From a virus, in IMG/VR virus record IMGVR_UViG_3300025141_009213, positions 1-41,757 of that record: 41,757 bases of DNA. The stretch is one strand, 5' to 3'. Below the pieces are notes generated by a model. The model searched no databases and was not told the DNA's origin. It saw only the letters and a list, made by a program, of their open reading frames with translations. The position numbers and the translations under genes were made by a program. Shown piece by piece: positions 13,130 through 23,741 of this stretch. Position 1 is the first letter of the stretch, and each line of letters begins with the position of its first letter.

Positions 13130-14278
13130 TTAATATACGAAAGAGTAACCAACGGAAATGAAGTCCTTATTAAGGAGTTCAAATCCAGCAAACAACGACC
13201 AAATCATAATGATAAAACGACTAAAGTCATCGTTATTATTCAAGAGGATCTGTGCGTTATTACCACCCACACCTACGCCAACTGCTTGAGGACCAAAGAA
13301 GATCAACTGAGCAGCACCATAATCAGCAGCACTTGCTGACTCATCGGTAACAATCAAGTTATAGGAAGTCTCAGGCAGGTTTGTTGATTCAAACCAGCGA
13401 ACTCCCTCAAAAAGAAATCCGGTAGGCATCACTGGCTGTCCTGCGACAAAACCAGCTTGACCATAAGCAGGTCCCATTCCTTGATAGAAATTAGCTGAAG
13501 GAGCCAAATTAGGCTGCATCGGATCTACCATCCCAGAACCGGGGTAACGTGCGATCTCGCGGAAGTCAGAGTTCTGACGGAGATGCATCATTGCGGTTGG
13601 ATCCACAATGCAGCGGTAGTAACCATCACTAAAAGTTGGGACGTTGCGCTTACGCATGTCCTTAACAACTTCAAGAAGGTCAGTTTTTACATCAAACTTA
13701 CCAGATTCACCAGAAGCGTAGGTTACGCCGAGGGTTCCGCCGGAACCACCTTTGTTTTTACCACCAGGTAGATAATATCCACCTTGTGTGCTGCTTGCTT
13801 CGCCATTGGCTTCAGCTTTAAGCAGTTCATTAGCGAAGACGCGGTCGCGCCAGCGGCGGTAGTCATCAAGCAGGGTTAGTGAACCAATGCTTTGATGGAA
13901 TACATTCAAATTACCTGTATCAAGCAGCAAACGCTGTGCAGTGATCAGGGTTTCACGAGCCACCTTGAATGTAGAAGGTTGTGCTGTGTCGCGAGTATCT
14001 GCAGGTCCTGTATATTCCCTCAACGTAACAAGAACTTTGTCCTTGACGATATTGCGGGCGCTAGATGTGCCTAGCGTCTGATCAGCAGTACGTTCGCGTG
14101 ACTCCTTAGTGCCTGGTGCTCCCCAGAAACGGTAACGATCTAGTTGAACCGTTTGTCCGGGTTGCTTGGAAAAATCGTGTACAACCACAGGCTCTACCGC
14201 CATCTCAATGATGTAGGCAGGATGCGGGCGGTACAGTTCAGCCCCAAGGAGTTTTGGAAAATCGTTGTCAATCCACAT
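13130..14278 (-). CDS. Major capsid protein (putative, possibly N4 gp56-like)
   Basis: A 382-residue protein. Features fitting a HK97-fold capsid protein include an early segment with extended strands (GQTVQLDRYRFWG), a long helix-rich middle (STFKVARETLITAQRLLLDT, DDYRRWRDRVFANELLKAEA), and a domain with VDPTAMMHLRQNSDFREIA. That last element resembles the segment seen in N4 gp56-like capsid proteins. The length and absence of a protease-cleaved N-terminus also fit. GGAG lies ahead of the ATG. It is followed after a 14-base gap by the putative decoration gene and then a terminator. Capsid identity is likely; the exact family is a guess. Confidence 0.68.
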   Translation of the reverse strand: MWIDNDFPKLLGAELYRPHPAYIIEMAVEPVVVHDFSKQPGQTVQLDRYRFWGAPGTKESRERTADQTLGTSSARNIVKDKVLVTLREYTGPADTRDTAQPSTFKVARETLITAQRLLLDTGNLNVFHQSIGSLTLLDDYRRWRDRVFANELLKAEANGEASSTQGGYYLPGGKNKGGSGGTLGVTYASGESGKFDVKTDLLEVVKDMRKRNVPTFSDGYYRCIVDPTAMMHLRQNSDFREIARYPGSGMVDPMQPNLAPSANFYQGMGPAYGQAGFVAGQPVMPTGFLFEGVRWFESTNLPETSYNLIVTDESASAADYGAAQLIFFGPQAVGVGVGGNNAQILLNNNDDFSRFIIMIWSLFAGFELLNKDFISVGYSFVY

Positions 14279-14400: not shown

Positions 14401-14766
14401 ATGGAAGACTTTATTGATACTAATGAATGGGTGCCTGTACTCAGCCTGCCTGGATTTGAATGCTGTATTGAGTACTACGTGAACCGTGATGGTGACATTA
14501 AAACTACTAAAGGTGGCAAGGACAGACTGATGACACCAGTCACTATTAAGTCTGGCTACCAGAAAGTGACACTCCAGCAGCGTCTTGGACAGAAAGGTGA
14601 GAAGCAGGTTTATGTACACACCTTAGTCGCACTAGCGTTTCTAGGTACTCCACTTACTCCCCTTGGTAGAAAGAAGGGTTGCTCTACTGTTGATCATATC
14701 AATAAAAATAAATCTAATAACTCTATTGATAACCTTCGATGGATATCAGCAGGGGGGTTAAACTGA
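14401..14766 (+). CDS. HNH homing-type endonuclease (NUMOD4 + HNH)
   Basis: A 121-residue protein. The N-terminus (EWVPVLSLPGFECCIEYYVN, RDGDIKT) resembles NUMOD4, the DNA-recognition module of HNH homing endonucleases. The C-terminal part has VYVHTLVALAFLGTP followed by STVDHINKNKSNN and IDNLRWIS, the conserved His-Asn/NL-W core of HNH endonucleases. It lies on the plus strand, opposite to its neighbours, next to the capsid gene, a common site for free-standing phage homing endonucleases. The reading frame stops soon after NLRWIS at a run of six G; such proteins usually continue a little further (N-x-x-N-R), so a short truncation or frameshift is possible. Confidence 0.8.
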   Translation: MEDFIDTNEWVPVLSLPGFECCIEYYVNRDGDIKTTKGGKDRLMTPVTIKSGYQKVTLQQRLGQKGEKQVYVHTLVALAFLGTPLTPLGRKKGCSTVDHINKNKSNNSIDNLRWISAGGLN

Positions 14767-14815
14767 ATCAATCTATTAAATAGTTTAAAATAGTATAAGA
14801 AATGGTATTTAAAAC

Positions 14816-15523
14816 ATGGCTGATAGTCTCTATTTTAAGGGCGAACGCACTGTCACTAAGAAAACTGGTGATAAGGTTAGTCTGATTCGCCCTAAGCGCG
14901 GGGGTGATACCCATCTATTCCCACAATGGTGGAATCTAAAAGGTAAAGTTCAATACCTTAAGACTGCTATCTTTAAATTTGAACTGAGTAACGGACAAGC
15001 TGTTCGTCTTGTTATTCCTGTTGAGAAGGAAGGTGTAGAAGTAGCTATCCGTCATGATGGTGATGGTAACTTTACGTTCCCTTCATTCAAATGTATTGAA
15101 CGAATTGCTGTAGTTGCAGTAGATAGTACTTCATTGATTCATGAGTATCAATTCCCATCAATTTCTAGTGGACGAGTTCTGAAACGAACTGTCGGTTCAC
15201 TACCAGCTTCTACTACTACTATTGGAACCGTTACTGTTAGCGGTCCAAACAGTGCTGAGGTTGACAATACACTGACATATACAGCGGCGGCTTCTGGTGA
15301 TGCGACTGTTAGTTACAGCTGGTCAATCCCTGGCGGCGGAGCAGCTATTCAGTCTGGTAGATCAACAGCTTCAGCAACTATTAAATTCACAGCAGCAGGT
15401 TCCTGTAAACCTACCTGCATTGTTTCATCATCTGATGCTGGACTAACTGGTGAAAGTGATATTGCTGCTGACATCACAGTTACCGTTACTGCAGTTGAAT
15501 CTGAAGATGACGACGAAGGCTAG
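14816..15523 (+). CDS. Virion protein with C-terminal Ig/PKD-like domain
   Basis: A 235-residue protein. The N-terminal half (TGDKVSLIRPKRGGDTHLFP, IFKFELSNGQAVRLVIPVEK) is beta-rich and unrecognised. The C-terminal half, TVTVSGPNSAEVDNTLTYT, then ATVSYSWSIPGG, SATIKFTAAGSCKPTCIVSS and DITVTVTA, has the strand pattern and central Tyr-x-Trp of PKD/Ig-like domains that decorate many phage capsids and tails. The tail is very acidic (ESEDDDEG). It is probably displayed on the virion surface. It sits on the plus strand downstream of the HNH gene and converges on the 224-residue gene, with which it shares stop-codon bases. Confidence 0.65.
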   Translation: MADSLYFKGERTVTKKTGDKVSLIRPKRGGDTHLFPQWWNLKGKVQYLKTAIFKFELSNGQAVRLVIPVEKEGVEVAIRHDGDGNFTFPSFKCIERIAVVAVDSTSLIHEYQFPSISSGRVLKRTVGSLPASTTTIGTVTVSGPNSAEVDNTLTYTAAASGDATVSYSWSIPGGGAAIQSGRSTASATIKFTAAGSCKPTCIVSSSDAGLTGESDIAADITVTVTAVESEDDDEG

Positions 15524-16226: not shown

Positions 16227-17165
16227 CTACAGATACTCATTTACCTTGTCACTTACTTCTCGTAATGATTTAAGTGCTTTATTCTCTAAAGTCCTTACTC
16301 TGTCACGGCTCATATTAAGGATTTGACCTATGGCTGTCATTGACAAAGGTTCCAAAATCTCTTCACCAATTCCATAACGCATACCGATTACAGCAGCTTG
16401 CATCTCAGGAAGATCTGCTATTAAGCTACGAATATCTTCCTTCACACAGTCCTGCTCAAGCAGCTTGTCTGGCAACTGTGCTTCATCTTCCAACAAATCA
16501 ATTAATGCTGTATCCCTGTTTTCACCTATTTTGATTTCTAAAGAAGTAGGCTGACGAGCCTTGCACATTAAATCCTTGATATCATCTACAGTTAATTCTA
16601 ATTTCTCTGATAGTTGAAAGACAGTTGGCATATAACCATTAAGTTGTGACAGCTCCCTTTGTGCCTTTTTTAGTTTGTTGAGATTCTCTGTGACATGGAT
16701 GGGGAGTCTTATTGCTCTAGACTTCTCTGCGATGGCTCTTGTAATTCCCTGTCGTATCCACCAATAAGCGTATGTAGAAAACTTATAGCCACGACCGGGA
16801 TCAAACTTTTCAACACCACGCACCAGTCCAATTGTTCCTTCTTGGATTATGTCTAGAAGTTCCATATTGCGCTTGGTGTATTTCTTGGCAACTGATACAA
16901 CTAAACGAAGGTTCGCTGTAACCATCCTCTCCTTAGCTTTAACGCCGTCACGAATCTCCCGTTTAAGTTGACGAACGGGTACTTCGCAGGCATCAGCTAA
17001 TCCTTGGTTATCTAGTTGAAGCTCTTTCTTCTGCTCCTCGATTTCCATTAACCGTTGAACTTGACGACCTAGGAGGATTTCTTCGTCATGCTCTAGTAAA
17101 GATACGCGTCCGATATCACGTAAATAAGCACGTACGGAATCGCCTGATGCAGCTGGTTTTGCCAT
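16227..17165 (-). CDS. Sigma-70 family RNA polymerase sigma factor, cyanobacterial group 2 type
   Basis: A 312-residue complete sigma factor without region 1.1. Region 1.2: DSVRAYLRDIGRVSLLEHDE. Region 2: MVTANLRLVVSVAKKY, MELLDIIQEGTIGLVRGVEK, FDPGRGYKFSTYAYWWIRQG (the 2.3/2.4 promoter-melting and -10 reading part). Region 3: LPIHVTENLNKLKKAQREL. Region 4: SMTAIGQILNMSRDRVRTLE (helix-turn-helix for -35). Length and wording match cyanobacterial group 2 sigma factors much better than the short T4 gp55-type late sigma factors of cyanomyoviruses. It presumably redirects host RNA polymerase to phage genes, perhaps via the recurring TAGAATAG/TATAATAG elements. All core elements appear intact. Confidence 0.92.
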   Translation of the reverse strand: MAKPAASGDSVRAYLRDIGRVSLLEHDEEILLGRQVQRLMEIEEQKKELQLDNQGLADACEVPVRQLKREIRDGVKAKERMVTANLRLVVSVAKKYTKRNMELLDIIQEGTIGLVRGVEKFDPGRGYKFSTYAYWWIRQGITRAIAEKSRAIRLPIHVTENLNKLKKAQRELSQLNGYMPTVFQLSEKLELTVDDIKDLMCKARQPTSLEIKIGENRDTALIDLLEDEAQLPDKLLEQDCVKEDIRSLIADLPEMQAAVIGMRYGIGEEILEPLSMTAIGQILNMSRDRVRTLENKALKSLREVSDKVNEYL

Positions 17166-17610: not shown

Positions 17611-18324
17611 CTAATCGGCCCAACTACCTGGCTTAACACGATTAGGCCCTTGTACACCTTGAGGTGTGTGTGGTGCGATCCCTGCGAAACTAGCAGCTTT
17701 TTTCCCTACTACCCCACCTTGACTTCTGTAGTCACGAATATATTTTTTCATATTCTCATCTGAAGCACCTGAACTACGCATATGCTCCAAATCTTTCAAA
17801 CCTATGCCTCTACCACCATGCGCTGAAGCATCATGACTTTCATAATCATATCCTACGTCAGGAGTTTTGCCTCCCTTACGTTTGTTCCACCAATCACCTA
17901 AGTTCTTTCTGTGATCACTACCAGCTAATGCACCAGCTTCACTGTCTTGCATTGTAGCCCACTTAGAAGCTCTTTTACCTACTCTTCCACCACTTGCTTG
18001 GTAATCCCTCATGAAGTTTCTAATGTTCTCATCAGAACCACCTGCTTCCCGTATGTAGTCAAGATCTGCTTGACCGAATCCTTTCCCATCTCCACGCGCT
18101 GATGAATCATAAGCACCGAAGTCAAACATACCCCTATCGCGAGGTGAAGGTCTGTGCATTCCCGCAACTTTGCCAGCCCCTACTTCACGCTCAAGCGTAT
18201 GGGCATCCATCTCGCCTAATTGACTTAATGCACGGCCTCCCCCTTGAGCTTCTACCACTCTTGCTATACGATCTCTTGCGAAATCCTGTGCATATTCTCG
18301 TTGTCCGTTATTTGGATTAGCCAT
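17611..18324 (-). CDS. Repeat-domain virion protein (two copies of a novel ~55-residue domain)
   Basis: Start chosen at the ATG at 18324 (MANPNNGQREYAQDFARDRI), because a TATAATAG motif at 18347-18354 would lie inside the coding region if the in-frame ATG at 18372 were used. The product is 237 residues. After a helical N-terminus it carries two copies of a domain with the pattern FDFG..D.S..G.GKGFG..D...IR..G.S.ENI..F.RDY...GG.VGK.A. They are joined by the linker SEAGALAGSDHRKNLGDWWN. The 342-residue gene on the other side of the portal has the same layout with high identity. The domain function is unknown; the position among portal and packaging genes suggests an internal or connector-associated virion protein. 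Confidence 0.6.
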   Translation of the reverse strand: MANPNNGQREYAQDFARDRIARVVEAQGGGRALSQLGEMDAHTLEREVGAGKVAGMHRPSPRDRGMFDFGAYDSSARGDGKGFGQADLDYIREAGGSDENIRNFMRDYQASGGRVGKRASKWATMQDSEAGALAGSDHRKNLGDWWNKRKGGKTPDVGYDYESHDASAHGGRGIGLKDLEHMRSSGASDENMKKYIRDYRSQGGVVGKKAASFAGIAPHTPQGVQGPNRVKPGSWAD

Positions 18325-18346
18325 TTTTACATTAATGTTGTTATTA

Positions 18347-18354
18347 CTATTATA
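18347..18354 (-). promoter_or_regulatory. TATAATAG, candidate -10 element that decides the start at 18324
   Basis: Minus-strand TATAATAG, 23 bases before the ATG at 18324. The spacing matches the other motif-to-start distances in this window. Confidence 0.5.
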
Positions 18355-18388
18355 GGGGGATTGAATTAACAACCCCCACTAATAATTA

Positions 18389-19375
18389 TCAGAGATCCTG
18401 AACGAGCATTTTTGTTTGTAGTGCTCCTTGAGGTGCTTGTGCAAGGAATTTCCATGCATCCTCAGGACGGCTATCCATCAGATAGGAAAGACCACCCCAG
18501 AAGTCATTTGACTCATTCACTTGACGACCTGGTGTAGGCATATCCATTTCAGGGCGTTGGAAGTTTGAGGGAACTTGAGTGTTCCTCTCTTGCTGCTGGA
18601 TTTCAGCTGCAAACTGAGCACGGGCTTCATACTGTTGACGTGCTTGTGTTTCAGCAGCAGTCTCAGTCGGGTATGGGCCTCTAGGACCGTAGAAATCGTT
18701 GACGTAATCAGCAAGAACGTCAGGGTGAGTCAGCATCAAGTTCATTGCTGAACGCTCTTCACCTGCTGCTTCAAGCATCAGGGACTGATACTGACCACGC
18801 TGTACTTGCTCAACAAGAGCGTCTTCTACAGCACAAGCGTACTGGTTTAGAAGAACTGGTGCTTCAGCGCCGAAGTGCTGGAGAACTTCAAGACTTTGAT
18901 CGCTTACCTGACTTAGATACGCGTCCCTTACCTCTGCTTGGGGCTGACCCTGCATTGGGGCCTGCTGCGTATAAGCCGGGGTTGAAACTCGGGGACTGTA
19001 GGTCTGGGCTTGCGAATACTGGACTGGTGCCGCCTGCGGTGCCGAAGCCCACGCTGCCGGTGTAGCTATCTGGGGCGTCGGTGTTTGGTAAGCCGAGGGT
19101 GACACCTGGGCTTGGGATGGGCTGCTTGTATTCAAACTGGCGCTGAGTGCCTGGAACGCCTGCTGCCATGGATTGCCCTGTTGAGCCGAAGCCTGCTGGA
19201 CCTGGGCCGGTGCCTGGTAAGCCTGAGGTGTTGCTGTTTGGTAACTCTGATCCAACACCGGGGAGGCTGATTGTTGGCTCATCCCGGGTTGGACGGCCAA
19301 GCTTTGCTCTGACGCGATCGGCATCGGAGAGCTTGCTTGGACCGAGGTCATCACTGCTTGGTTTGTACCTTCCAC
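18389..19375 (-). CDS. Scaffold-like protein overlapping the portal gene
   Basis: A 328-residue protein from a GTG at 19375, preceded by AAGGAG with a ten-base gap. Residues 1-145 are Gln/Pro/Ala/Ser-rich and disordered (SPVLDQSYQTATPQAYQAPA), and the C-terminal half is helical and charged (SLEVLQHFGAEAPVLLNQYA, YEARAQFAAEIQQQERNTQV, RPEDAWKFLAQAPQGAL). A disordered region plus helical C-terminus, directly downstream of the portal, is typical of phage scaffolding proteins, though here the capsid gene lies elsewhere. The first 488 bases are shared with the 3' end of the portal gene in another frame. An alternative ATG at 18955 would almost remove the overlap, but the strong Shine-Dalgarno site favours 19375. 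Confidence 0.6.
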   Translation of the reverse strand: MEGTNQAVMTSVQASSPMPIASEQSLAVQPGMSQQSASPVLDQSYQTATPQAYQAPAQVQQASAQQGNPWQQAFQALSASLNTSSPSQAQVSPSAYQTPTPQIATPAAWASAPQAAPVQYSQAQTYSPRVSTPAYTQQAPMQGQPQAEVRDAYLSQVSDQSLEVLQHFGAEAPVLLNQYACAVEDALVEQVQRGQYQSLMLEAAGEERSAMNLMLTHPDVLADYVNDFYGPRGPYPTETAAETQARQQYEARAQFAAEIQQQERNTQVPSNFQRPEMDMPTPGRQVNESNDFWGGLSYLMDSRPEDAWKFLAQAPQGALQTKMLVQDL

Positions 19376-21134
19376 TGTAACTTAACTCCTTACGTAAAAA
19401 TTCAAGTGATCTATATAGGAATCCTGTGATATCAAGATTCGGGTCAGATGCCAGAGGTAAGTCTGGTGTCTGTGGGTGCGGTAACTGATAAAGTTGACCG
19501 AGTAATCCGATAAACGAATTTAATGATTGCTGTGTCTGTTGAACCATTCTGAAGGGATAACCGCTTAACATTGCGGCTCTCTCTTCATCAGTTTTGCCAG
19601 GGAATAGATACTTAAGTGCTTCAACAGAATCCACACCTAATTCTTGAAGGTTGCGTACGACGATACTGTTATTTAGAATATCGTCTGTACTTTCTTCAAA
19701 AACTTCACCCTCCCAGCGCCATGCAACTTTAGTGCTGCCATCTGGGATAAGTCCAACTACTCCTTGAGGAATATCTCCTGAATCAAGTGTAGCACGAATT
19801 TGTTCTTCCCTTAGATTGATGAATTTCTGATACTTCGTTAGGAACTTTTCATTATCTACTTCAAACCTTTCTTCATCACCTTCGTAGTCTTCCATTAATG
19901 GAGGAGTGGGTTCTTGTAAACCAATAATTGATGCAAATGATTTATTGAATAACTCTTCTTCATGACGTATCATCATTGCGAATAGCTTACACAAACCATA
20001 GTCAAATAACGCTCTTGCTTTCTTTTCTGCTGTTGCTGCAACACGACCATATAAAGTTTTGATCTCATAAGCAGTGGAAGCTGTACCAATATCGATATCA
20101 TCAACACCACCTAGTGCTAGACGAATTTCACTTCGATACTGCTTGACGTACATATTCTGATCACCTGAAACACTATCAGGAGTTAAGTAACTAACACGAT
20201 CAGTAGGTTCAAGGTTTGCAATCACCCTTGGTACTTTAATTTGTCCATCTAAACTAGAAGCACCGCCGAACGGTTGAGTGGATTTAGTGCTGCCTCTGCC
20301 TATGGCCGCAAATCCTGCCTGAGAGCTGATTGTAGGCTTAAACGATTGCTCATCCCCAGCTTCAATAATGTCCTGCTTAGGGCGGCTAGAAACAAGCGTG
20401 GGGTTGCCGAAGAACTTCATGTTCTTGCGGATATTATGCACTAGCTCATCGTGGTACAGAATCTGATTCGATAACCACTCAAATTCCCCATTTCCACTTG
20501 CTTCACCTGTACAATCCATATGATTGTAAACTTCAACTGCTGGAATGAATCCCAAACTATTTGTAAGTACTTCTGTTGAACCAGGCATCGTCATTGGTGA
20601 CTGACCCATTTCATTCTCAAAATCTATCTTTTCATTTGATATAGTCTGCTCGATCCTGTCTTTATATACTTTTAGTCGAATATATTTTGTCCTACCTCCA
20701 CGACCATTTACTTGAGCGAACTGATCTATTGCATTAGGCTCACGTACATTGAAACTGTATATCAGCACCACGCTTTCTAACTCACTGTTTTGATTCCGAT
20801 AAGCACGGTAACTATCTTTAGGGAAATAAAGGAGTTGGTACGTGTCACCGTTTGGCCTGAAGTAAAATAAACCTTGTCCATCACATAAGAAATAATCGAT
20901 GATGCTATCTAGCTTCATCTCCAACATATTATGTTCACATATGTTTCTTAGAAAATCCTTCCTTTTGCCAAAGGAATCCTGATCTGCATAGAACTCAATA
21001 CCTCTACGTAACATGAACATCCGCATCTGCGCTAGATGTGATGAAATAATCATCGTATCTACTGAAAGATCGCCCCTTCTTTCTTTAGCGGCAGTAAGTA
21101 ATGGTGATAGCTTACTTTGTGACATAGAGTTCAT
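18888..21134 (-). CDS. Portal protein with long Gly/Pro-rich C-terminal extension
   Basis: A 748-residue protein. The first ~570 residues have portal-like features: a helical start, GQGLFYFRPNGDTYQLLYFP, the long strand-turn region with YIRLKVYKDRIEQTISNEKI, GFIPAVEVYNHMDC, and a stretch of DEL/HNIRKNMKFFGNPTLVSS characteristic of the stem/wing region. Helices VAATAEKKARALFDYGLCKL and EKFLTKYQKFINLREEQIRA follow. The last ~170 residues are Gly/Pro/Ser-rich, end in a basic tail (RGKGRVSKSGKRSKS), and are encoded in DNA that is also read as the start of the scaffold-like gene. It lies next to the large terminase block, the usual place for a portal. AAAGGAAAAG precedes the start. Confidence 0.72.
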   Translation of the reverse strand: MNSMSQSKLSPLLTAAKERRGDLSVDTMIISSHLAQMRMFMLRRGIEFYADQDSFGKRKDFLRNICEHNMLEMKLDSIIDYFLCDGQGLFYFRPNGDTYQLLYFPKDSYRAYRNQNSELESVVLIYSFNVREPNAIDQFAQVNGRGGRTKYIRLKVYKDRIEQTISNEKIDFENEMGQSPMTMPGSTEVLTNSLGFIPAVEVYNHMDCTGEASGNGEFEWLSNQILYHDELVHNIRKNMKFFGNPTLVSSRPKQDIIEAGDEQSFKPTISSQAGFAAIGRGSTKSTQPFGGASSLDGQIKVPRVIANLEPTDRVSYLTPDSVSGDQNMYVKQYRSEIRLALGGVDDIDIGTASTAYEIKTLYGRVAATAEKKARALFDYGLCKLFAMMIRHEEELFNKSFASIIGLQEPTPPLMEDYEGDEERFEVDNEKFLTKYQKFINLREEQIRATLDSGDIPQGVVGLIPDGSTKVAWRWEGEVFEESTDDILNNSIVVRNLQELGVDSVEALKYLFPGKTDEERAAMLSGYPFRMVQQTQQSLNSFIGLLGQLYQLPHPQTPDLPLASDPNLDITGFLYRSLEFLRKELSYSGRYKPSSDDLGPSKLSDADRVRAKLGRPTRDEPTISLPGVGSELPNSNTSGLPGTGPGPAGFGSTGQSMAAGVPGTQRQFEYKQPIPSPGVTLGLPNTDAPDSYTGSVGFGTAGGTSPVFASPDLQSPSFNPGLYAAGPNAGSAPSRGKGRVSKSGKRSKS
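19386..19391 (-). promoter_or_regulatory. Shine-Dalgarno AAGGAG inside the portal gene
   Basis: Minus-strand AAGGAG, ten bases before the GTG at 19375. It supports independent translation of the scaffold-like gene from within the portal coding sequence. Confidence 0.6.
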
Positions 21135-21159: not shown

Positions 21160-22188
21160 CTAGCCGATACTGTCAATCTTATCCATAAATTTATCATAAT
21201 CTAAATCAGGTGCCTCGACAGGCTTAAGCGGATCTGGCCATACAAACTCTGGAGGCTGTCTACCAGTCCATTGATCTCCAAAAGTTTCAGTCCTACTAAT
21301 GTCTGAGTGAGCACCATGATACAGGGGACGTTCATGTACCCGCTGATCTAATGCCGCCCTATCTATTACAGGGTTTGCTCTACTCGCAGCTATATACTGT
21401 TGAGCTGTGTCAGATCCACTTGTCTTGTCCATAAAGTCACCAGCAAATCTTTTTACTAATCCTAATCCAGCAGGTTTATTGCCGCTGAGTCCCGCATTAA
21501 TCGTCGCGTTAGTGACATTGGCGTTGAAGTCTTTGTTGCTGTTCAAAAGATTTCTTGGGCCGCTTGTTGCTGATATACTATTAGGCCCTTTTACACCTTT
21601 AGGTGCCCATGGCGCGATGCCCGCGAAACTAGCAGCCTTTTCTCCTACTACACCACCTTTGCTTCTGTAGGAACGGATATATTTTTTCATGTTTTCATTT
21701 GAAGCACCTGAATTACGCATATGCTCCAAATCTCTAATACCTATGCCTCTACCACCATGCTTTGAAGCATCATGGCTTCCATAATCATATTTTATTTCTT
21801 TAGCTTTACCTCCCTCACGTTTGTTCCACCAATCACCCAAAAACTTTTGTGCATCACTACCAGCTAATGCACCAGCTTCACTGTCTTTCATATCGTAAAT
21901 ACCTGCTGCTCTCTTACCAACCTTTCCACCACTGGCTTGATAATCTCTTGCGAATTTACCGATATTTTCTTCTGACGCACCTTGCGCTCTCATATGCCTA
22001 ACATCAGCTAAGCCAAACCCTTTCCCATCACCATACATTGATGCATCATGATCACCGAAGTCATACATCTTCCTTCTCCCTTCAGGACGTGGTGCTCTTC
22101 CCGGTGTTGGTGCCGGGTTTGGTGAGTTCTTAGGAATCCCACCGATTGGAACATCATCTGTGTAGGGTCTTGTGTCAATCTTGGTCAT
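21160..22188 (-). CDS. Repeat-domain virion protein, paralogue of the 17611-18324 protein
   Basis: A 342-residue protein. Two copies of the ~55-residue domain lie at residues 42-96 (YDFGDHDASMYGDGKGFG, then DYQASGGKVGKRAA) and 134-190 (YDYGSHDASKHGGRGIG, then YRSKGGVVGEKAASFAG). They are separated by a linker with SEAGALAGSD and LGDWWNK. Domain and linker match the 237-residue paralogue closely, but the N-terminus (TPGRAPRPEGRRK) and the C-terminal 150 residues (ending in a Pro/Asp-rich segment, EAPDLDYDKFMDKIDSIG) are unrelated. It lies between large terminase and portal genes. Function unknown. Confidence 0.6.
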   Translation of the reverse strand: MTKIDTRPYTDDVPIGGIPKNSPNPAPTPGRAPRPEGRRKMYDFGDHDASMYGDGKGFGLADVRHMRAQGASEENIGKFARDYQASGGKVGKRAAGIYDMKDSEAGALAGSDAQKFLGDWWNKREGGKAKEIKYDYGSHDASKHGGRGIGIRDLEHMRNSGASNENMKKYIRSYRSKGGVVGEKAASFAGIAPWAPKGVKGPNSISATSGPRNLLNSNKDFNANVTNATINAGLSGNKPAGLGLVKRFAGDFMDKTSGSDTAQQYIAASRANPVIDRAALDQRVHERPLYHGAHSDISRTETFGDQWTGRQPPEFVWPDPLKPVEAPDLDYDKFMDKIDSIG

Positions 22189-22202: not shown

Positions 22203-23741
22203 CTACATAATTAAGCTATCACTATTGTAGTCTAATTGTAGACACCCTCTTCTCAGTAATCCACCCATAGTAAGTACCATTGAATCAACAGCATCATCGT
22301 GAGCTGAATGGCCAAAATTGAGTAACTCTTCTTCTAGTACATCCCACTTTCTCCATTTATTCCAAGCTACTTTACGATTCTCATATAAACCAAGCACACC
22401 CCTAAGTCTTGCTAATTTATCTCCTTTAAATCCCTTCACTGGTGAGCATGACAGGTTATACAAAGCACGATCATCGAACATGATACGTTTAAAGTCACCT
22501 TCAAATGAAGTTTGATAAGCTACTGCCTCAGGCCAAATAATGCACGGTGACATTGTTGGGAAATATTGCCCTTCATCATTTTCAGCTAATATATTCCAAT
22601 CAGCTAGCATCTCACACAACGTATCCATCTTCTCGATGTTACCCATGGTTCGATTACGCCTTTGATCTATTAAATAAATCTTTCCACCCTTAATTCCACC
22701 TAATGTCATTACTGTCCAGTCGTTCTTCTCACTGAGTCCAGCACTAAGGTCAATTCCTACTCCTATGCAGTCATATTCTTCAGGTACTTCTGTTTTGCAA
22801 ATCAATTCCGGCGATATTCCTACATCAGCTGTCCTTACTGCAGTATTTAGATACTGATACGCGAAAGCTACACGATCTTCTGCCTTACGTTCATTTAAAT
22901 ACTTCATTGACCAAAACTCAGGCCAATATGAACGTTGCCTACCTTCTTTATCAGTTAATACTGCTTTCTGGATAACTTGTCTCCAATTATTCTTTGGTAC
23001 AAATAACGTAGCGTGTATATCATCAAAATGGAAACGTGTTCCAAGACAGATGGCACGTGCACCCTGGAACATAGTTGGAGCAATGACGTTCGTCCATGTA
23101 TTTTCCATTTCACGTCGAATGTCTGGATTATTAATTGACCCAGCTGACTTAATCGGGTCATCAATAAGCACCAGCTGTGATCGTTTAGATGTGATTGCTC
23201 CTTTTAGACCTCCACAAGCAACTGTGAATGCTTCCTCTCCACTGGTATCGATTCCAGCGAATTCATAATCAATACTCCAGTATTCATCTGAACGCCTGAT
23301 CCTTGATAGCCGAACCATCGGGAATATTTCCCTGTATTTACTGCTCGTTAATATCCCTTTGATTGTTGCTGACTTCGCTCTCGCAATATCTACCATATAG
23401 CTGATGTATAGCACTCTCAGCATTCGCTTTGCAGCTGCATGTCGGCCAATCATCCAAGCTGCAAATAAACCAAGCACGGTACTTTTGGCAGATCCACGTG
23501 GTGCCAGAATTGCTGTATTGGGACCAGCTATTCCTAATAGGCATTCACTATCTTCTCCGCTACATAACTCCGCATGCCACTCCAGCATATGCTTTGCTGG
23601 AGGTTTTCCTAGATATGTGCAGAATACTTTGAAGTCATCCCTAGCTTGTAATACTTGTTCTGAGGGTGGCTTGACGGTTACTTTCGTTGCCGTCATTAAA
23701 GCTGATCTTTTGTACGCTAATGCTACACTTGAGCCTGCCAT
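22203..23741 (-). CDS. terL: Terminase large subunit (DNA packaging ATPase/nuclease)
   Basis: A 512-residue packaging motor. Walker A is APRGSAKST (about residue 80), Walker B is LVLIDDP (about 190), and the coupling motif with CLGTRFHFDD follows. The RNase H-like nuclease half has the first catalytic Asp in GVGIDLSAGLSEKNDWTVM and an acidic motif near the C-terminus (GHSAHDDAVDSMVLTMGGLL). It converts concatemeric DNA into packaged genomes, docking on the portal. All expected motifs are intact. A TATAAATCAGTATA element lies directly ahead of the ATG. Confidence 0.95.
   Translation of the reverse strand: MAGSSVALAYKRSALMTATKVTVKPPSEQVLQARDDFKVFCTYLGKPPAKHMLEWHAELCSGEDSECLLGIAGPNTAILAPRGSAKSTVLGLFAAWMIGRHAAAKRMLRVLYISYMVDIARAKSATIKGILTSSKYREIFPMVRLSRIRRSDEYWSIDYEFAGIDTSGEEAFTVACGGLKGAITSKRSQLVLIDDPIKSAGSINNPDIRREMENTWTNVIAPTMFQGARAICLGTRFHFDDIHATLFVPKNNWRQVIQKAVLTDKEGRQRSYWPEFWSMKYLNERKAEDRVAFAYQYLNTAVRTADVGISPELICKTEVPEEYDCIGVGIDLSAGLSEKNDWTVMTLGGIKGGKIYLIDQRRNRTMGNIEKMDTLCEMLADWNILAENDEGQYFPTMSPCIIWPEAVAYQTSFEGDFKRIMFDDRALYNLSCSPVKGFKGDKLARLRGVLGLYENRKVAWNKWRKWDVLEEELLNFGHSAHDDAVDSMVLTMGGLLRRGCLQLDYNSDSLIM

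Follow-up and report, generated by a model that had tools for sequence, protein, structure and literature searches.

The window, by which we mean the whole 41,757-nt stretch of viral DNA analysed here (IMG/VR record IMGVR_UViG_3300025141_009213), encodes a predicted phage portal protein and a second protein, ORF2, whose genes lie on the same strand and share 488 nt (Table 1). A sequence-only reading of this DNA had proposed the overlap, with ORF2 continuing for about 500 bases past the portal stop. Comparison of the open reading frames bears out both statements: the portal frame is open to 18888, and ORF2 runs from the GTG at 19375, in the +1 phase relative to the portal, to a point 499 nt beyond the portal stop. 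A TAA closes the ORF2 frame just upstream, so that this GTG is the first possible start. Both products are of low complexity within the overlap, as had been claimed. The overlap was also said to be rich in G and C, and it is (59.2%, compared with 40.1% in the remaining portal gene, 49.3% in the remaining ORF2 and 42.2% in the window); the cause offered, dual coding per se, is only indirectly right. The high GC content follows from the Gly/Pro/Ser/Ala/Gln make-up of the products and the avoidance of AT-rich stop codons, and GC is raised in the non-overlapping part of ORF2 too.

Table 1. Features of the portal/ORF2 locus and its head-gene neighbours in the window.
Feature	Position	Strand	Description
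Portal gene	18888..21134	minus	748 aa, ATG start; codons 1-586 core, codons 587-748 tail in the overlap
ORF2	18389..19375	minus	328 aa, GTG start; probable scaffolding or head-assembly protein; kept in all relatives
Dual-coding region	18888..19375	minus	488 nt, read in the portal frame and the portal +1 frame
ORF2 start GTG (slot 2)	19373..19375	minus	relatives start either at this GTG or at an ATG one codon upstream
AAGGAG Shine-Dalgarno for ORF2	19386..19391	minus	within the portal K-E codons of ...RKELSYSG
TAA in the ORF2 frame	19382..19384	minus	three codons before the GTG; bounds the ORF2 frame
Major capsid protein gene	13130..14278	minus	downstream of ORF2; phrog_1357 major head protein, E=7.4e-18
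Terminase large subunit	22203..23741	minus	upstream of portal; phrog_38, E=2.3e-69

The portal assignment is supported by predicted fold. In PHROGs the protein matches phrog_20475, annotated 'virion structural protein' (E=2.6e-177), and has a weak match to the portal family phrog_64. Its AlphaFold model is of moderate quality (pLDDT 52.9); the top Foldseek hits to this model are all portals (E 3.8e-07), VIA-align gives Z 13.9 with an rmsd of 5.7 over 254 residues, and the solved portals that it matches include those of 80alpha, SaPI1, T7, SPP1 and cyanophages. The gene also lies close to that for the terminase large subunit, with one gene between them in the window and three small ones in Synechococcus phage S-EIV1. 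The final portal helix modelled with confidence reaches residue 585, and codon 587 is where ORF2 starts. In the tail encoded by the overlap, the model shows no structure except for one short helix. The tail of the window protein is of low complexity and has a pI of 9.8; across relatives the final 25 residues of the tail are basic, with a median net charge of +7.

We gathered relatives by scanning with the window portal, ORF2, the S-EIV1 portal and a portal of a third clade. After identical sequences were dropped, 245 distinct overlaps remained: 108 from a marine clade that includes the window, 68 S-EIV1-like and 69 from the third clade (the names 'marine' and 'freshwater' are shorthand taken from isolate and record titles). 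The three clades are separated by long branches with full support in a tree of the portal core. Every one of the 245 sequences with an intact region has the overlap in the same +1 phase. Its length is 446-566 nt in the marine clade, 545-641 nt in the S-EIV1-like clade and 458-524 nt in the third, a total range of 446-641 nt, and both frames are thus kept in widely divergent relatives. Among the relatives gathered we found none that lacks the overlap, and none in which the portal ends before the ORF2 start. Two loci have broken portal frames that look like sequence errors: in L079 a stop interrupts the portal outside the overlap, which is intact by tblastn, and L130 has several portal frameshifts. 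A third locus, L094, is cut at its contig end. The sequence-only reading had named a start near 18955, close to the portal stop, as a pattern that would count against it. We reject a conserved start of this kind, which is not kept across clades; in the S-EIV1 clade, 63/81 loci have a start at -38 nt near the portal stop. As a separate matter, four third-clade phage contigs (L244-L247) sit inside MAGs titled Euryarchaeota and are probably mis-binned phage DNA.

S-EIV1 (KJ410740) is the only isolate that we found with the overlap. Its portal is 45% identical to that of the window and has the same +1 overlap, here 554 nt long. Its ORF2 is 32% identical end to end and has the same end coordinate as the annotated protein AHV82225.1. 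The record holds ORF2 only as a 133-aa fragment that starts downstream of the portal stop, at 59863, which by the present analysis is 576 nt too late; we infer an ATG start, one codon ahead of the GTG used in the marine clade. The gene order is portal, ORF2, a 158-aa ORF and the major capsid protein. This capsid gene (KJ410740 60859-62010; L081 10645-11796) is 66.6% identical to the capsid gene of the window (compared over 13133-14278). The capsid locus appears to be mis-annotated in the record, where its place is taken by an antisense ORF (60784-61545) and, on the plus strand, a truncated ORF (61540-62010). The S-EIV1 annotation is thereby corrected, and gene callers can evidently truncate ORF2 in this lineage.

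The start of ORF2 is kept at all 313 loci in one of two adjacent slots, either ATG in slot 1 or GTG in slot 2 (the count is by locus, and some contigs entered more than once). The portal motif encoded at this place is [ST]Y[AS]G at each of the 313. A portal YAG is encoded by TAT GCA, with Tyr always TAT, and goes with an ORF2 start at ATG in slot 1; a portal YSG is encoded by TAC AGT, with Ser always AGT, and goes with an ORF2 start at GTG in slot 2. At other portal positions the marine clade encodes Tyr by TAT in 64% of cases and the other two clades use TAT and TAC about evenly, and only 7-26% of Ser codons are AGT. On the tree, the ATG/GTG state has switched at least twice, once within the third clade (L245). 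A start that shifts by one codon together with the matching change in the portal residue is strong evidence of initiation there. Moreover, nearly all loci have a stop in the ORF2 frame one or two codons ahead of the start. At the Tyr codon preceding the ORF2 GTG we observed TAC in 153/153 marine loci, compared with 36% at other portal positions; TAT there would put ATA ahead of the marine GTG.

The sequence-only reading had also pointed to an AAGGAG at ideal spacing before the GTG. The motif is present; its spacing of 10 nt is slightly long. A Shine-Dalgarno core of the GGAG/AGGA type precedes the start in all 108 marine and all 68 S-EIV1-like sequences and in none of the 69 from the third clade, in which initiation would therefore be weaker or Shine-Dalgarno-independent. 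Shine-Dalgarno-independent initiation is common in cyanobacteria. Taken together, these sequence patterns make it very likely that ORF2 is translated by internal initiation.

How readily would a second frame stay open by composition? When the portal segment is recoded with synonymous codons, the ORF2 frame is expected to contain about 3 stops; when ORF2 is recoded in the same way, the portal frame is expected to contain about 3-6. The real sequences have none. The median per-genome chance of zero stops is 0.1-4%, depending on the codon table. At ORF2 four-fold sites that precede AA, AG or GA, T occurs in 0/598 cases within the overlap and in 530/967 outside it. Zero is what an open portal frame demands, because a T there would create a portal stop. 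At other places in the overlap T makes up 17%, hence these sites are not plainly T-free.

Synonymous-site conservation in both frames among relatives had been put forward as a check, and we measured synonymous change in independent close pairs within each clade, with bootstrap confidence intervals. Portal synonymous differences fall from the N-terminal part to the overlap in all three clades (0.278 to 0.055, 0.257 to 0.056 and 0.339 to 0.080), giving ratios of 0.20, 0.22 and 0.24, a 4-5-fold drop. ORF2 synonymous differences fall from the ORF2-only part to the overlap (0.216 to 0.087, 0.197 to 0.082 and 0.262 to 0.096), with ratios of 0.40, 0.42 and 0.37, a drop of about 2.5-fold. The confidence intervals exclude 1 for both proteins, and counts over all pairs agree. 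Synonymous change is thus reduced in both frames of the overlap in every clade. The ratio of first- to second-position differences in the ORF2 frame is 0.47-0.56 in the overlap and 1.4-1.9 in the ORF2-only part. This flip is expected because the first position of ORF2 is the second of the portal, and the second position of ORF2 is the third of the portal. Codon usage, which we compared to ask which frame is older, leans to the portal frame in the marine phages (127/142), with no lean settled in the other clades.

Portal synonymous change is also 2-3-fold lower in close pairs over the 100-140 codons upstream of the ORF2 start. This zone, at 19376-19800 in the window and at the same place in all three clades, has a fairly sharp edge and contains no conserved third ORF. 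When deep pairs are compared, the zone mostly vanishes from the marine and third clades, and the S-EIV1 clade still shows it; it could reflect recombination or a cis element. Because the reduction extends upstream, part of the drop in the overlap may be regional. Measured against this adjacent zone, synonymous change in the overlap has ratios of 0.45, 0.67 and 0.49, and the confidence interval of the second reaches 1.05. In deep pairs, synonymous change in the overlap is still clearly lower.

As judged by sequence comparison, then, both frames are open and under purifying selection in three clades, with the start codon of ORF2 always in the same place. The conservation across clades, the lowered synonymous change in each frame and the covariation of the start codon with the portal residues all support the dual-coding reading, and we regard it as almost certain that the 488 bases of the window encode two proteins. 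We propose that one mRNA would carry the portal gene and, in its +1 frame, ORF2, read from an internal start codon. Just before that codon, and inside the portal gene, the window clade and that of S-EIV1 both have a strong Shine-Dalgarno sequence. Translation of the portal frame would yield a 586-residue core with a flexible, basic-ended tail of about 160 residues, and initiation at the internal start would yield an acidic ORF2 protein with a flexible N-terminal half and a helical C-terminal half, which may act as a scaffolding protein in procapsid assembly. An internal start would uncouple synthesis of a many-copy scaffold from that of the 12-copy portal. That both proteins are of low complexity and mostly disordered in the overlap may be why they tolerate it. 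We consider this explanation as a whole, dual coding with an internal start and a scaffold, to be quite likely, with dual coding carrying the most weight.

Could the second frame be an accident of GC-rich, low-complexity composition, with one frame only translated? Both products are of low complexity in the overlap, and by composition alone a given genome would have that few-percent chance of keeping a second frame open; the frame is open in all 245 distinct sequences, however, its ends are conserved, and lowered synonymous change and the inverted position ratio recur in all three clades, which leaves this reading barely credible. Nor do we think it at all likely that ORF2 is a +1 ribosomal-frameshift extension of the portal, with the Shine-Dalgarno-like motif acting as a stimulator as in prfB. 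The phase of ORF2 and the presence of the motif in two clades would fit, but the stop just ahead of the start closes the ORF2 frame at nearly all loci, the third clade is without the motif, and the portal frame stays constrained for about 160 codons past the site. A frameshift, moreover, would not need a start codon, yet one is kept at 313/313 loci through ATG/GTG switches. The low synonymous variation might instead mark an RNA or DNA element, such as a packaging site, a promoter or a structured RNA, rather than two proteins. The low-synonymous zone just upstream, with no conserved third ORF, would suit such an element; but variation in the overlap is 3-periodic as two coding frames predict, RNA folding around the start is unremarkable (z -0.37 and -1.72) and no excess of promoters or terminators was found, so that we rate an element of this kind as highly improbable.

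The role of ORF2 is a more evenly balanced question. The overlap might be truly dual coding and ORF2 some other head component, for example an ejection protein, a portal-associated plug or a head-completion protein, and we take this to be the less likely reading but a serious one. In its favour, ORF2 matches nothing in PHROGs, Pfam or the PDB, hhalign finds no similarity to the T7 scaffold gp9 (probability 0.1%), and no scaffold is among the Foldseek hits to viral structures. The single hit at E<=0.001, A0A0C4K645 (133 aa, 27% identity), is by its length probably the shortened S-EIV1 ORF2 entry. The fold model searched is itself weak (mean pLDDT 57, pTM 0.24), and scaffolds diverge fast, which makes absent homology weak evidence. 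A Gln/Pro/Ala-rich N-terminal half would also be unusual in a scaffold, and in the window several other genes separate ORF2 from the major capsid gene. Against this, ORF2 is acidic (pI 4.3 in the window, median 4.1), its C-terminal half is predicted, at low model confidence, to be helical with conserved C-terminal helices, S-EIV1 has only one small ORF before the major capsid gene, and no other scaffold candidate was recognised beside that gene. The overlap-encoded half is predicted to be disordered but for a helix at residues 69-81, which holds a conserved NPWxxAF motif.

A scaffolding role therefore stands as our best guess, and we hold it with modest confidence. The description of ORF2 as scaffold-like in the sequence-only reading is plausible from its acidity, helical C-terminal half and place between the portal and capsid genes, and finds no echo in scaffold family matches. 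The order of genes resembles that of T7, where gene 8 (portal), gene 9 (scaffold) and gene 10 (capsid) likewise place an acidic protein of about 300 aa between portal and capsid; gp9, with 307 aa and a pI of 4.31, is close to ORF2 in both respects. Unlike portal and ORF2, T7 genes 8 and 9 do not overlap and are 99 nt apart. In phage lambda, the Nu3 scaffold for head assembly is started inside another head gene, C, in the same frame. In portal and ORF2 the frames differ, so that the DNA encodes two unrelated sequences. It is conceivable, although we think it doubtful, that the basic portal tail and the acidic scaffold are binding partners whose contact nucleates procapsid assembly and maintains the overlap; if so, one DNA stretch would encode both sides of a nucleation contact.

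Overlapping genes as such are already known, and overlaps that are both long and out of frame are in general associated with small genomes. The contigs of this lineage are 80-106 kb, so genome compaction is a weak explanation. In annotated viral genomes, +1 overlaps have a median length of 14 nt (IQR 8-26; PMC8903798), and the largest overlap common to phage families under a 95%-similarity criterion is 185 nt (PMC7017920). The surveyed overlaps are also same-strand and +1, whereas those described here are several hundred nucleotides long and are kept across deep clades. The claim that overlaps this long are rare in tailed phages agrees with both surveys, and two tailed-phage head genes that share so long a conserved +1 overlap are far from typical. 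Because the surveys rest on annotation, they would have missed it. We found no report of an out-of-frame portal-scaffold overlap in the open-licence literature. For the study of dual coding, and of de novo protein tails among tailed phages, the locus is an unusually clean natural case, and it points to a likely scaffold in a widespread group of cyanobacteria-infecting phages.

The head module of the window has other features of its own. A gene for a sigma-70 family RNA polymerase sigma factor (16227-17165) lies between ORF2 and the capsid gene, and beside the capsid gene a plus-strand pair at 14401-15523, encoding an HNH endonuclease and a 235-aa protein, breaks the minus-strand run. The proteins encoded at 17611-18372 and 21160-22188, on either side of portal and ORF2, have no family match for their glycine/aspartate-rich domain (YDFG.HDAS..G.GKGFG...), a repeat of about 60 residues that is common to both.
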